Part shown: positions 10,758 through 17,829 of the stretch, piece by piece
Layout: every line of letters begins with the position of its first letter
Position numbering within the stretch: position 1 is the first letter of the stretch
Assembly (NCBI RefSeq): GCF_022565475.1
Contig: NZ_JAIUMR010000015.1
Location: 1-55,394, forward strand
Direction: 5' to 3'
DNA: 55,394 bases
Origin: Aliidiomarina sp.
GTDB lineage: Bacteria; Pseudomonadota; Gammaproteobacteria; Enterobacterales; Alteromonadaceae
Translations under genes and position numbers: made by a program
The notes under the pieces: generated by a model
What the model was told of the DNA's origin: nothing
The model's input: the letters and a program-made list of their open reading frames with translations, nothing else
The model's database searches: none

Positions 10758-11027
10758 TTAGCGACGTAATTCAAGACGCTTAATCAGGTCTACATAACGC
10801 TCTTCATTTTTGCGCTTTAAGTAGTCCAACAACTTACGACGTTGGCTTACCATGCGCAGCAGACCACGACGTGAGTGGTGATCGTGCTTGTGCTCTTTGA
10901 AGTGACCTTGCAAGTGGTTGATTTGCGCAGTTAACAGAGCGACCTGAACTTCAGGTGAACCTGTATCGCCTTCGCCACGCGCGTAGTCGGCTACGATTTG
11001 AGCTTTTTGAGCAGCTGTTAGTGACAT
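10758..11027 (-). CDS. rpsO: 30S ribosomal protein S15
   Basis: 89 residues, the usual length. S15 binds the central domain of 16S rRNA early in 30S assembly. Family signatures are clear: [33 protein letters not shown] and RKLLDYLK. The ATG is preceded by GGAG. It lies between truB and pnp, as in many proteobacteria, with its own promoter in the truB-rpsO gap. Confidence 0.98.
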
Positions 11028-11090
11028 AATGTTACTCCAGTTTTGATGATGCCCGAGCCGATCACTAATTCAGCCCAAGCGGGAGCGCGA

Positions 11091-12046: not shown

Positions 12047-12442
12047 TTATTCCTGTTCGTCGTCTGGATTCTCTTGCGCGCGCTTTTCGTCACTTTCACG
12101 CGCTTCACGTACTAAAGTCGCCATCCGGATACCTTCCATCAAGCTTACATCGTGAACAAAACGCAACTCCGGCGTAACCCGAGCTTTAATACGCTTACCC
12201 AACAACGAACGAATATAACCCGCCGCTTCATTGAGTACATCCAGCGCCGCCTTGACCTGCTCCTGATCGTCTTGCAAAAAGGTCACAAAAACCTTGGCAT
12301 AACCCAAGTCCTTCGACACTTCAACATCATTCACCGTCGGCATCACAACCCGCGGGTCCTTGATCTCCCGCTGCAAGATCATCGCAATCTCACGCTGCAT
12401 CTGCTGCGAAAACCGATCCGTACGACTAAATTGCTTCTTCAT
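12047..12442 (-). CDS. rbfA: Ribosome-binding factor A
   Basis: 131 residues. RbfA binds the 30S subunit and helps mature the 5' end of 16S rRNA, especially in the cold. Family features: FSRTDRFSQQMQREIAMILQ, the KH-like core DPRVVMPTVNDVEVSKDL, and an acidic C-terminal tail. The start ATG has a good GAGGAG. In most gammaproteobacteria rbfA follows infB directly; here 446 bp of repeats and a terminator separate them, so rbfA-truB may have lost or weakened its link to the nusA-infB transcript. Confidence 0.96.
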   Translation of the reverse strand: MKKQFSRTDRFSQQMQREIAMILQREIKDPRVVMPTVNDVEVSKDLGYAKVFVTFLQDDQEQVKAALDVLNEAAGYIRSLLGKRIKARVTPELRFVHDVSLMEGIRMATLVREARESDEKRAQENPDDEQE

Positions 12443-12485: not shown

Positions 12486-12551
12486 GGGCGACTTACTTGC
12501 GCAATAGCCTGCCTGCGCAGTTGTCGCCCTAGTAGCGCGGTTGTCGCCCTA
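12486..12551. repeat. Short direct and inverted repeats upstream of rbfA
   Basis: Two 17-bp direct units at 12515-12531 and 12535-12551 (GCGCRGTTGTCGCCCTA) differ at one base and are 3 bp apart. The segment 12486-12503 is an inverted partner (GGGCGAC...GCGCA against TGCGC...GTCGCCC), so a transcript could fold into a hairpin. This is part of the non-coding stretch between infB and rbfA. No gene is visible here. Confidence 0.65.
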
Positions 12552-12647
12552 TCAGCCTCTAAGCTCCCGCATTGCTAGGCTACCTGATACTCAACACCGT
12601 GCAAATATTAAAAGCCATCAACGCTGAGCGGAGACCGACTCAATAAC

Positions 12648-12845
12648 TAAAAGTGGCATGCGTATAATCAGTCGAACTATAAAGGCTACCGAGCACAGAG
12701 AGAGAAGCAGTTTGGCAAAGTGTCCGAGCCATGGATGGCGAGGCCAAGCCCCCATGGATGGGTTTACGGCGTCTTTGCCAAACTGTTTCTCTTGTCGTGC
12801 GTAAGTAGCCTAATCCTCGATCTAATTATACGCATGCCACTTTTA
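12648..12845. mobile_element. MITE-like 198-bp palindromic element between infB and rbfA
   Basis: The ends are a perfect 21-bp inverted repeat (12648-12668 and 12825-12845, outer sequence TAAAAGTGGC). Inside, arms 12701-12720 and 12773-12792 pair at 19 of 20 positions (core CAGTTTGGCAAAG / CTTTGCCAAACTG), and the stretch between outer and inner arms pairs partially. The centre (12721-12772) holds two small perfect hairpins, GCCATGGATGGC and CCCATGGATGGG. There is no ORF. The outermost TA on each side would fit target duplication by an IS630/Tc1-type transposase, but since TA is self-complementary this is only suggestive. As RNA the whole element would fold into one long hairpin in the operon transcript. 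Confidence 0.75.
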
Positions 12846-12882
12846 AAACGAGAAGCTACGCTCACAGCGTAAGCGTAGCTTC
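12845..12882 (-). terminator. Intrinsic terminator directly after infB
   Basis: A perfect 11-bp stem (GAAGCTACGCT / AGCGTAGCTTC, 12852-12882) with a 9-nt loop lies 6 bp past the infB stop. On the minus strand it is followed by TCGTTTT, which abuts the terminal repeat of the palindromic element. It would cut rbfA-truB off from the nusA-infB transcript. Confidence 0.75.
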
Positions 12883-12888
12883 CGTGCT

Positions 12889-15570
12889 TTACAGTGTGCG
12901 CTCGACTTGGATGGTTTCGAAGACCTCGATTTGGTCGCCGACTCGAACGTCGTTGTAGTTCTTGACGCCGATACCACATTCCATGCCGTTACGAACTTCT
13001 TGCACGTCGTCTTTGAAGCGACGTAACGATTCAAGCTCACCTTCGTAGATCACCACGTTGTCGCGGAGAACACGGATTGGCGCTGAACGTTTAACGATAC
13101 CTTCGGTGACCATACAACCAGCAATCGCGCCGATTTTTGGTGATTTGAAGACATCGCGAACTTCTGCAAGACCGATAATCTGCTGTTTGAACTCAGGCGC
13201 TAACATACCGGTCATCGCCTGCTTGATCTCATCAATCAAGTCATAGATGACACTGTAGTAGCGAAGCTCAATGCTTTCGTTCTCAGCAGTACGACGTGCA
13301 GTTGCGTCAGCACGAACGTTAAAGCCGATGACGATTGCATTCGAAGCGCCTGCCAAGCTCATATCCGTGTCGGTGATACCACCTACGCCGTTACCGATAA
13401 TATTCACTTTTACTTCATCGGTAGAGAGTTTGGTCAACGACTCGATAATCGCTTCGAGTGAGCCTTGAACGTCTGCTTTGACAACTAAGTTCAGTTCTGA
13501 CACGTCGCCTTCTTGCATGTTGCTAAACATGTTTTCTAGCTTAGCTTTCTGCTGACGTGCCAATTTCACTTCACGGTACTTGCCTTGACGATAGTTCGAA
13601 ACTTCGCGTGCTTTGCGCTCGTCTTTAACCACGTTGACTTCATCACCCGCAGCAGGAACACCGGACAAACCGAGAATTTCTACTGGAATTGATGGGCCAG
13701 CGGTTTCAACTTCTTGGCCAAGCTCGTTGCGCATCGCACGAATACGACCGTACTCAAGACCACAGAGAACGATATCACCACGATTCAAGGTACCGCTTTG
13801 AACCAAGATGGTTGCGACCGGTCCACGACCTTTGTCCAAGCGTGATTCAATCACGAGACCTTTCGCCATGCCTTCAAACGATGCTTTCAAATCGAGCATT
13901 TCTGATTGCAGTAGTAAGGCCTCAAGCAATCCATCGATATTCTCACCGCTTTTCGCCGAAACGTGAACGAACTGAACGTCACCGCCCCACTCTTCAGACA
14001 ATACGTCGTGCTGAGCAAGCTCAGATTTAACGCGATCTGGATCCGCTTCAGGCTTATCGATCTTATTGACGGCAACAACCAATGGAACGCCTGCCGCTTT
14101 CGCGTGCTGAATGGCTTCCACGGTTTGTGGCATCACGCCATCATCCGCAGCGACAACCAAGATAACGATATCCGTCGCACTGGCACCACGAGCACGCATT
14201 GACGTAAACGCCGCGTGACCCGGAGTATCCAAGAAGGTAATCATGCCGTGACCGGTGTCAACGTGATAAGCACCAATGTGCTGGGTAATACCACCGGCTT
14301 CACCCGCTGCAACTTTCGCCTTTCGGATGTAATCGAGTAACGACGTTTTACCGTGGTCAACGTGACCCATAACAGTAACAACCGGTGCGCGTGACTTCAG
14401 TTCACCTTCATCACTGCGGTCGAGAAGAACAGACTGCTCAAGCTCATTGTCGTTGACGAGAACAAACTTGTGACCTAACTCTTCAACCACCAGCGATGCG
14501 GTTTCTTGATCGAGCACCTGATTAATCGTGACCATCTCGCCCATTTTCATCATGGCTTTGATGACTTCAGTGGCTTTAATCGCCAACCGGTTCGCTAAAT
14601 CAGCGACGGTAATGGTTTCCGGGATGCGAACTTCACGTTCCACCGGTGCTGCTGGCTTGTTAAAGCCGTGCTGCATGCTGCTCGGTGAACGCTTACTGCC
14701 TTTACGGCGACGCTCACGACGAGGACTATCGTCTTTCTCGTCATCCTTTCCACGACGCTTGGTCTTCTTCGCAGTGCGGCGGCCACGACGTTCTTCTTCG
14801 GTGTCCTGTTGCTCTTCAGCAAATTTAGCGGTCACCGAAGTGGTAAAGTGAACGTCTTCTTCTTCCATCTTCTTCCGACGAGCTTCTTCTTCTTCCCATC
14901 GTGCTTGGTTTTCTTCAGCTAAACGACGAGCTTCTTCGGCTTGACGCTTCGCTTCTTCTTCCGCTTTTTTCGCAGCTTCTGCTTCTTGCACTTGACGAAT
15001 ACGCTCAGCTTCAGCACGCGCAGCTTCGGCTTTCGCCTTTTCTTCTGGTGACTTCTCTGGCTGAGGTTTAGCTTTTTCTTTTGCTTTCGCGGCTTCCGCT
15101 TTCGCAGCGGCTTCTGCTTTTGCCTTCGCTTCCGCTTTCGCAGCAGCCTCTGCCTTCGCTTTGGCCTCAGCTTCAGCTTTCGCTTTTGCTTCAGCAGCAG
15201 CTTTCGCTTCCGCTTCCGCTTGTTCAGCGGCTAAACGCTCTTCTTCTAAACGCTGTTCTTCTTCTGCAGAGCGTTTCACATAAGTGCGTTTTTTCCGCAC
15301 CTCAACTTGTACGGCCTTGGCTTTACCCGGACCGGCGTTGATGCTTAACGTGCTGCGAGTCTTCCGCTTCAGTGTCATCCGACTCGGAGCAGCGTTACCA
15401 TCGCCACCATGAGCCTTGTTCAAATGCGCCAGTAACTGCGCCTTTTCATCTTCAGAAACTGTATCGCTTGCGCCAGATTTTTTAATTCCAGCTTCACTTA
15501 ATTGCGTGAGCAAGCGATCAACGGAGGTTCCGATATCACTGGCAAGTTTTTCGACTTTGACTTCTGCCAT
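12889..15570 (-). CDS. infB: Translation initiation factor IF-2
   Basis: 893 residues, about E. coli length (890). IF-2 is the GTPase that brings fMet-tRNA to the 30S subunit and promotes subunit joining. Domains in order: an N-terminal IF2_N helical domain ([20 protein letters not shown]), a long Ala/Lys/Glu-rich region at ~residues 90-240 (highly repetitive at DNA level, nt ~14880-15260), a second IF2_N, then the G domain with GHVDHGKTS at ~400, [18 protein letters not shown] and SAKSGENI, followed by beta-barrels and the C-terminal fMet-tRNA binding domain. It lies 25 bp after nusA in the rimP-nusA-infB operon. Confidence 0.98.
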
Positions 15571-17594: not shown

Positions 17595-17614
17595 AAAAAA
17601 AGGGCATAACGCCC
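17595..17614 (-). terminator. Short terminator-like hairpin just upstream of rimP
   Basis: GGGC-N5-GCCC followed on the minus strand by seven T. The stem is only four GC pairs, so it is weak. An ideal -35 (TTGACA, rc at 17625-17630) lies just upstream, but its -10 (TATGCC or TTATGC) would be poor and would sit in this hairpin. Confidence 0.45.
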
Positions 17615-17655
17615 AGTTCTTCGGTGTCAAAACTAATGTCAGTCAGGCTAGATAG

Positions 17656-17683
17656 CAAAAAGCCCCGGACTAAGTCGGGGCTT
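17656..17683 (-). terminator. Intrinsic terminator downstream of tRNA-fMet
   Basis: Stem AAGCCCCG / CGGGGCTT with an 8-nt loop, followed on the minus strand by six T. It separates the initiator tRNA from rimP, as is known for metY in E. coli, where part of transcription reads through. Confidence 0.85.
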
Positions 17684-17752
17684 ATAAACCTGGCGCGCCT
17701 TTCGACCTGAGTCTAACGGCTCACTACAATCTGAATACCATTAAACTCGAAC

Positions 17753-17829
<77 letters not shown>

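Follow-up and report, generated by a model that had tools for sequence, protein, structure and literature searches.

In the accessible part of a review, the YPAL repeat of Yersinia is described as a mobile element of 168 bp, with target duplications of 3–26 bp and with targets that span or adjoin dyads, and it is suggested that it might affect the stability of upstream transcripts (PMC2229807). The Rfam motif TwoAYGGAY has been reported from the human gut, gammaproteobacteria and Clostridiales, according to the portion of the source available to us (PMC2864571). The available portion of another paper notes strong matches of this motif to the CsrA-binding motif and proposes CsrA binding (PMC4333381). 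Here we report a copy of a dispersed, non-coding, hairpin-forming repeat which carries the YPAL/RU-2 apex and is located between two genes of a translation operon in Aliidiomarina sp. This identification is firm; elements of this kind are known, although poorly understood, and the location of the present one is unusual. The window, that is the whole stretch of DNA analyzed, covers 55,394 nucleotides (contig NZ_JAIUMR010000015.1) of a 2.73 Mb genome in 23 contigs, which is 95.6% complete.

The palindrome between infB and rbfA

A repeat search and a reading of the sequence located a non-coding palindrome of 198 bp (Table 1), with ends TAAAAGTGGC and GCCACTTTTA. The outer arms (24 nt) are 96% complementary and their outermost 21 bp are perfect by reading, while the inner arms (20 nt) are 95% complementary. 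The list of open reading frames contains none of 80 aa or more within the element. Thus, the perfect ends, the near-perfect inner arms and, for frames of 80 aa or more, the lack of an ORF announced in the preliminary description were all recovered at the places given there. The RNA of positions 12640–12855 has a predicted folding energy of −107.9 kcal/mol (z −12), compared with a mean of −53.6 kcal/mol (sd 4.5) for 200 shuffled sequences, none of which reaches the native energy. The mid-arm stretch (12672–12700 / 12793–12821) pairs only partly in the predicted fold. Also, the single-sequence minimum-energy fold pairs the center of the element otherwise than the family consensus does. The two mini-hairpins with GG dinucleotide loops proposed for this center are impossible as drawn; based on the consensus, they are replaced by hairpins with hexaloops, GCC-AUGGAU-GGC and CCC-AUGGAU-GGG.

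TABLE 1. Position of the element, its parts and the neighboring features in the window.
Feature	Position	Strand	Remarks
Whole palindromic element	12648..12845	+	The AYGGAY strand is the + strand and runs antisense to infB and rbfA; repeat search, fold
Outer arm, 5′ side (TAAAAGTGGCATGCGTATAATCAG)	12648..12671	+	24 nt
Outer arm, 3′ side	12822..12845	+	Complement of 12648–12671
Inner arm, 5′ side	12701..12720	+	Pairs with 12773–12792
Inner arm, 3′ side	12773..12792	+	Pairs with 12701–12720
Match to model R1	12708..12788	+	81 positions, 95.3 bits
Hairpin 1	12721..12746	+	Hexaloop AUGGAU at 12731–12736 (A-N-G-G-A-N); family consensus
Hairpin 2	12748..12770	+	Hexaloop AUGGAU at 12754–12759; bulge UUUAC at 12763–12767; closing GCC/GGC; family consensus
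infB (translation initiation factor IF-2)	12889..15570	−	Upstream gene
rbfA (ribosome-binding factor A)	12047..12442	−	Downstream gene
Hairpin after infB	12852..12882	−	Followed by a T-run (12848–12845, − strand) where the element begins

The two flanking genes were named from the synteny of relatives and from the label in the preliminary description. Rfam matches above threshold to a ribosomal S15 leader (10971–11081, −), a rimP leader (17595–17718, −) and a tRNA (17756–17829, −) fit with a nusA-infB-rbfA operon. In all 17 genomes of the genus rbfA adjoins infB, which confirms that the element lies between normally adjacent genes. The comparison of infB-rbfA gaps suggested earlier did reveal empty sites, in 15 of the 17 genomes. 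These gaps measure 53–94 nt from the infB stop codon (the rbfA start was set by hand in four of them) and contain no core, but a short hairpin, in some cases with a second small stem. The gap is filled only in this genome, where it reaches about 450 nt with the element, and in G001, its closest relative as judged from rbfA (92% identity), where a gap of about 545 nt contains the orthologous element and a second, inversely oriented copy. The hairpin after infB is retained together with its T-run, and the element begins straight after them. We infer that insertion in the common ancestor of this genome and G001 is the simplest reading. At one other locus, seven genomes of the genus (G000, G001, G003, G004, G006, G009, G010) have copies between matching flanks, which indicates that a large part of the distribution is ancient and vertically inherited; loss from the infB-rbfA gap in the other genomes is therefore a possible alternative to gain.

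A hairpin is predicted in the infB-rbfA gap of all 17 genomes (L061–L077), with very different sequences, and several of these hairpins are followed by T-runs and resemble intrinsic terminators. The stretch separating the element from rbfA contains, at 12515–12554, two 20-nt direct repeats that adjoin each other and are 85% alike; they lie on the side of the gap where G001 has its second copy. A consensus scan detected no promoter near the infB-rbfA copy.

A dispersed family with one apex

An alignment (A1) of 30 apex sequences, selected from the loci then available, gave a consensus three-way junction of 28 pairs, 22 of which show two-sided changes. Its covariation score was 0.612, vs. 0.176 (sd 0.014) after shuffling and at most 0.148 for slid structures, the latter comparison favoring the consensus since this alignment was also the source of the structure. 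In our element, positions 12708–12720 correspond to columns 1–13 of model R1, with two-sided changes in all 13 pairs. The apex is a three-way junction of two ANGGAN-loop hairpins and a UUYACGGCG block, carried on arms of free sequence in which the pairing is kept. All 23 invariant columns of A1 are identical in RU-2/YPAL of Yersinia, with one RU-2 base left without a column (comparison based on Table 1b of PMC2759123). Considering its 198 bp and its ends, which are unlike those of RU-2, the element belongs to the same superfamily and is not YPAL proper.

The element also gives full-length matches to two Rfam families, both under the gathering score: Ysr224 (RF02770) on the − strand (25.8 bits, E 0.0014; gathering score 70) and TwoAYGGAY (RF01731, clan CL00106) on the + strand (24.9 bits; gathering score 43). 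The genome contains nine places matching TwoAYGGAY, all below this score, the best at 35.1 bits. Searched with the Ysr224 consensus (E 0.01), 28 plasmid records and 5 of 5426 E. coli genomes gave matches. The copies on an E. coli chromosome, a Citrobacter plasmid and a Pantoea plasmid were first found in this way, and R1 recognizes them with E values of 3e-12 to 2e-8 (7,995 bases). By reading, the E. coli and Pantoea copies sit between two slightly different copies of one terminator-like hairpin, the distal copy with a T-run, a placement which fits the description of YPAL in the accessible part of the review (PMC2229807).

The core occurs at 11 distinct places of this genome (E 1e-7 or better) and in 24 of 58 genomes searched, own element and own genome counted. 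With R1 (E 0.01), 17 matches were detected in this genome and 230 in the genus, ranging from 0 to 44 per genome, with 15 of 17 genomes positive. In a survey of 369 gammaproteobacterial genomes, made with stricter filters than the genus survey and with 12 candidates scored per genome, 71 genomes and 63 of 272 genera were positive, own genome counted. At least 115 stretches of the genome contig collection contain the exact core pattern, and the matches listed include Stenotrophomonas, Marinobacter, Pseudomonas profundi, Saccharospirillum and Sedimenticola. Similar CCATGGATGG palindromes, which the preliminary description had mentioned for marine gammaproteobacteria, do occur in other gammaproteobacteria, including the marine Marinobacter. 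A sequence found once in the genome and conserved in all relatives had been considered the mark of a fixed regulatory structure; this sequence is neither. For the tests described below, we used two sets of copies: the Aliidiomarina set (the window and 94 loci, with 162 of the 230 R1 matches of the genus) and the named set, rich in Stenotrophomonas, which comprises 80 of the at least 115 exact-core stretches (L078–L157).

Several arrangements were observed among these copies. Tandem arrays with a spacing of about 174 bp are present in L040 (G015:C1:199700-203500; six cores, with a CCAACGCGGTGCGTTGG palindrome between the units) and in L265 (G015:C1:339100-343300; five R1 matches). Pairs of − and + elements a few hundred bp apart are often found (L112 and L129 in Stenotrophomonas, L039, L046, L221), and the sequences outside the pair form inverted repeats of their own in L112 and L129. 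A second subfamily, with a core starting with GTCGTCGCCATGGATGGCGACGCCATAGCG and a second hairpin loop ACGGAU, occurs in L036 and L037 (G000:C11, C4); C4:225-346, which probably belongs to this subfamily, gives the highest RF01731 score of the genome (35.1 bits). A viral, phage or plasmid origin was rejected, as viral contigs gave no exact match to 17 nt of the terminal repeat and the whole element had no match in phages and plasmids at E 1e-5.

Loops, arms and placement

The loops were scanned with an anchor placed outside them, only the first A of loop 2 being demanded. In the Aliidiomarina set, loop 2 (n = 122) reads A, then T66/G39/C11/A6, G116, G120, A120 and T81/C30/A9/G2. Loop 1, located from the flanking complementarity alone, was found in 86 of the 122 cases (36 not found) and reads A86, T42/G42/C1/A1, G85, G85, A86 and T84/C1/A1. 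The loops of the named set are similar (loop 2, n = 107; loop 1, n = 86), although loop 2 was part of the pattern by which this set was selected. Both loops therefore read A-N-G-G-A-N with N free, and the apex also contains the conserved UUYACGGCG block. ANGGA in hairpin loops is the CsrA-binding pattern, and we hypothesize, based on the loop sequences, that the apex may bind CsrA. Two csrA genes are present in this genome. Among the 369 Gammaproteobacteria, CsrA is present in 66 of 71 element-bearing genomes vs. 247 of 298 element-free genomes (Fisher p 0.04), and in 58 of 59 vs. 222 of 255 when only genomes with a completeness of 90% or more and a contamination of 5% or less are considered (p 0.009); the two genome lists were matched by hand, and genome size and phylogeny may confound the association. 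The five element-bearing genomes of the 71 in which no CsrA match was found are G252, 98% complete, and G065, G126, G157 and G398, 67–88% complete. Our literature search retrieved no paper containing both YPAL and CsrA.

The outer arm sequences vary among copies yet stay self-complementary. A complementarity score of at least 10 was reached by 99 of 104 Aliidiomarina copies vs. 3 of 103 chimeras, and by 81 of 81 copies vs. 13 of 80 chimeras in the named set, after removal of copies that lay close to the end of a locus, contained N or shared an identical context. In Aliidiomarina the arms have a median length of 50 bp (range 8–118). On the AYGGAY strand, isolated G·U (G·T) pairs outnumber A·C pairs in both sets (178 vs. 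45 in Aliidiomarina, 77 vs. 40 in the named set) under a scoring that treats the two alike; G·G exceeds C·C in Aliidiomarina (134 vs. 31), with no excess in the named set (33 vs. 38). The excess of G·U over A·C suggests that the pairing of the AYGGAY strand, as RNA or as single-stranded DNA, is what is preserved. This asymmetry is not proof of RNA, as folded single-stranded DNA tolerates G·T too, and the bias is weaker in the named set.

Fourteen orthologous pairs were compared along the arms, giving 543 unchanged base pairs, 44 double changes, 27 one-sided changes to G·U, 52 one-sided changes to a mismatch, 18 other cases and 315 gaps. Among them, the comparison of G009 with G010 (five pairs) gave 5 double changes, with 7 one-sided changes yielding G·U and 2 yielding a mismatch, a pattern for which ordinary compensatory evolution suffices. 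Concerted copying of the arms by template switch or fold-back was thus discarded, these changes needing no special mechanism.

Placement was scored per intergenic region by the copy nearest a gene edge, sense and antisense referring to the AYGGAY strand; genes were called with a custom script, and ORF-internal copies (6 and 8) and copies with a one-sided neighbor were left out. Antisense copies at gene 3′ ends predominate in Aliidiomarina (n = 71; 49 antisense and 7 sense at 3′ ends, 15 nearest a 5′ end) and in the named set (n = 52; 32, 6, and 14, respectively). The antisense copies nearest a gene 3′ end lie at a median of 85 nt from the stop codon in Aliidiomarina (n = 61) and 98 nt in the named set (n = 37). 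Divergent gaps account for 3 of 71 element regions vs. 30 of 115 other gaps of at least 60 bp in Aliidiomarina, and for 6 of 52 vs. 49 of 198 in the named set. As orthologues and arrays occur among these copies and regions, the placement p-values overstate independence. The strand that seems to be kept folded is mostly opposite to the adjacent gene. As partial explanations of this paradox, the AYGGAY RNA may stem from transcription that is antisense or reads through, or else folding may take place in single-stranded DNA.

Mobility, rival explanations and known systems

A difference between G000 (C11:56958) and G001 (beside C2:46834), at loci L032 and L223, shows an insertion with ends CTTCGAAGC and CTTCGTAGC. 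At our element any target duplication would be at most TTTT, beside the infB hairpin, and the general direct-repeat test was weak. Direct repeats of at least 12 nt flank 10 of 93 Aliidiomarina copies vs. 3 of 458 controls, several being arrays or other repeats, and 2 of 80 copies vs. 0 of 394 controls in the named set. Target duplications are not general among the copies. No mobilizing enzyme was identified. Mobilization of the RAYT/REP kind was rejected, as copy number is without relation to Y1 transposases (PF01797) across the 17 genus genomes: G006 has 21 copies and no Y1, while G013 and G014 have no copies and one and three Y1, respectively. The core was absent from the eight Y1 loci read of 25 Y1 matches.

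The preliminary description had proposed an IS630/Tc1-type MITE with 21-bp terminal repeats and a TA target. The perfect ends do start and finish with TA, but this TA belongs to the inverted repeat, of which it forms the last base pair, and in the G001 orthologue the base after CCACTTTT is T and not A, leaving TA on one side only, so that it does not resemble a target duplication. The search with terminal repeats and core that had been recommended gave a divided answer: the core is dispersed, while the 20-nt core of the outer arm (AAAAGTGGCATGCGTATAAT) is present only in the two outer arms, the terminal repeat having no other occurrence in the 95.6% complete genome at up to three mismatches. 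The repeated part is thus the center, which elsewhere is found with other arms. The unique ends and the TA missing in the sister species contradict a MITE, which we regard as extremely improbable. A conserved cis-regulatory attenuator of the nusA-infB-rbfA operon would agree with the operon position and with the gap hairpin predicted throughout the genus; it is nevertheless very improbable, given that the element occupies only 2 of the 17 gaps and has relatives at many unrelated loci. A recently acquired regulatory effect on the operon is possible.

Two other readings deserve more weight. The element may act as folded single-stranded DNA, the AYGGAY strand folding during replication and an HUH-type or other transposase reading the apex and loops, with CsrA uninvolved. 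The dispersal of the copies is consistent with this, and so is the fact that the strand kept folded is mostly absent from the adjacent mRNA; single-stranded DNA could also display the strand-specific mismatches of the Aliidiomarina set (G·T 281, G·A 224, G·G 134 vs. A·C 117, C·T 67, C·C 31). However, Y1 transposases do not track the copies, the Y1 loci read lack the core, and ANGGA, with N free, in the two loops is what an RNA-binding protein would recognize, which makes this reading rather doubtful. We consider it unlikely that the long hairpin is simply a gene 3′-end device, terminating or stabilizing the mRNA of the preceding gene with loops that matter little. The medians of 85 and 98 nt from the stop codon and the under-representation of divergent gaps speak in its favor, as does the possible influence of YPAL on upstream transcript stability mentioned in the accessible part of the review (PMC2229807). 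On the other side, neither invariant GGA loops nor a UUYACGGCG block would be needed in a plain hairpin, and the opposite strand is the one that shows the wobble bias.

The explanation that we prefer, and consider probable as a whole, is that of a YPAL-like repeat with an ancestral insertion. The element would be non-autonomous and mobile, would insert with an orientation preference, mainly at the 3′ ends of genes, and would have been inserted in the common ancestor of this genome and G001 directly behind the infB hairpin and T-run. Its AYGGAY strand would form a functionally important structure, in which the two loops, 23 nt apart, may offer a double docking site for one CsrA dimer, so that a transcribed copy could serve as a sponge or a tether for CsrA. 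The infB-rbfA transcript contains the complementary strand, which would fold into a long intercistronic hairpin; this hairpin would probably act as a site for RNase III or as an exonuclease barrier and uncouple rbfA from infB mRNA. As a counterpoint to CsrA docking, the AYGGAY strand is mostly antisense, and the mRNA of the gene that the element follows has AUCCAU loops and not GGA.

The interest of this finding lies in the family link established through one apex and its ANGGA loops. One conserved junction joins repeats that were catalogued separately, namely a mobile repeat and an sRNA of Yersinia and an orphan Rfam motif. CsrA provides a testable reason for the conservation of this junction, and the free yet complementary arms constitute a natural data set on the evolution of long hairpins. 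Also, it appears that such an element is able to sit within a core translation operon. Tentatively, and with the odds somewhat against it, we suggest that YPAL/RU-2, Ysr224, TwoAYGGAY and the palindromes of Aliidiomarina, Stenotrophomonas and Marinobacter could be one mobile superfamily scattering CsrA double-docking hairpins across the genomes of Gammaproteobacteria, so that mobile DNA would load or rewire Csr/Rsm regulation, with arms hypervariable since only their pairing would be kept.

Compared with REP, BIME and GTAG- or CGTC-tagged repeats with RAYT, the family shares the dispersed extragenic palindromes, many of them downstream of genes, but REP units measure 20–40 bp, whereas a junction apex with an 81-position model and long free arms is found here (REP features from the part of PMC3733652 consulted, a paper on CGTC-tagged REPs whose main text, as far as available, contains no word-initial ATGGA, GGCGTC, CsrA, Idiomarina or Marinobacter). 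Copy number is also not tied to Y1 transposases here, unlike the RAYT-REP system. Ysr224 corresponds to the antisense strand of the same core in an alignment of the sister copy, although the score of the element is far under the gathering threshold (25.8 vs. 70 bits). TwoAYGGAY has the same two AYGGAY-loop hairpins closing a multiloop on a long outer stem, based on the 30-copy consensus and the sister-copy alignment, but the stem of hairpin 2 is longer in the Rfam model. CsrA-binding RNAs of the CsrB/RsmZ type likewise present GGA in hairpin loops; those are single-locus sRNA genes, in contrast to the dispersed two-site repeat described here. The closest likeness is with YPAL/RU-2. Both are non-coding intergenic palindromes with the same apex, dispersed in intergenic copies with filled and empty sites (here, 17 copies in the genome, with 2 filled and 15 empty gaps), and they differ in that YPAL is about 168 bp long with Yersinia termini, while the Aliidiomarina element measures 198 bp and has other arms and ends.
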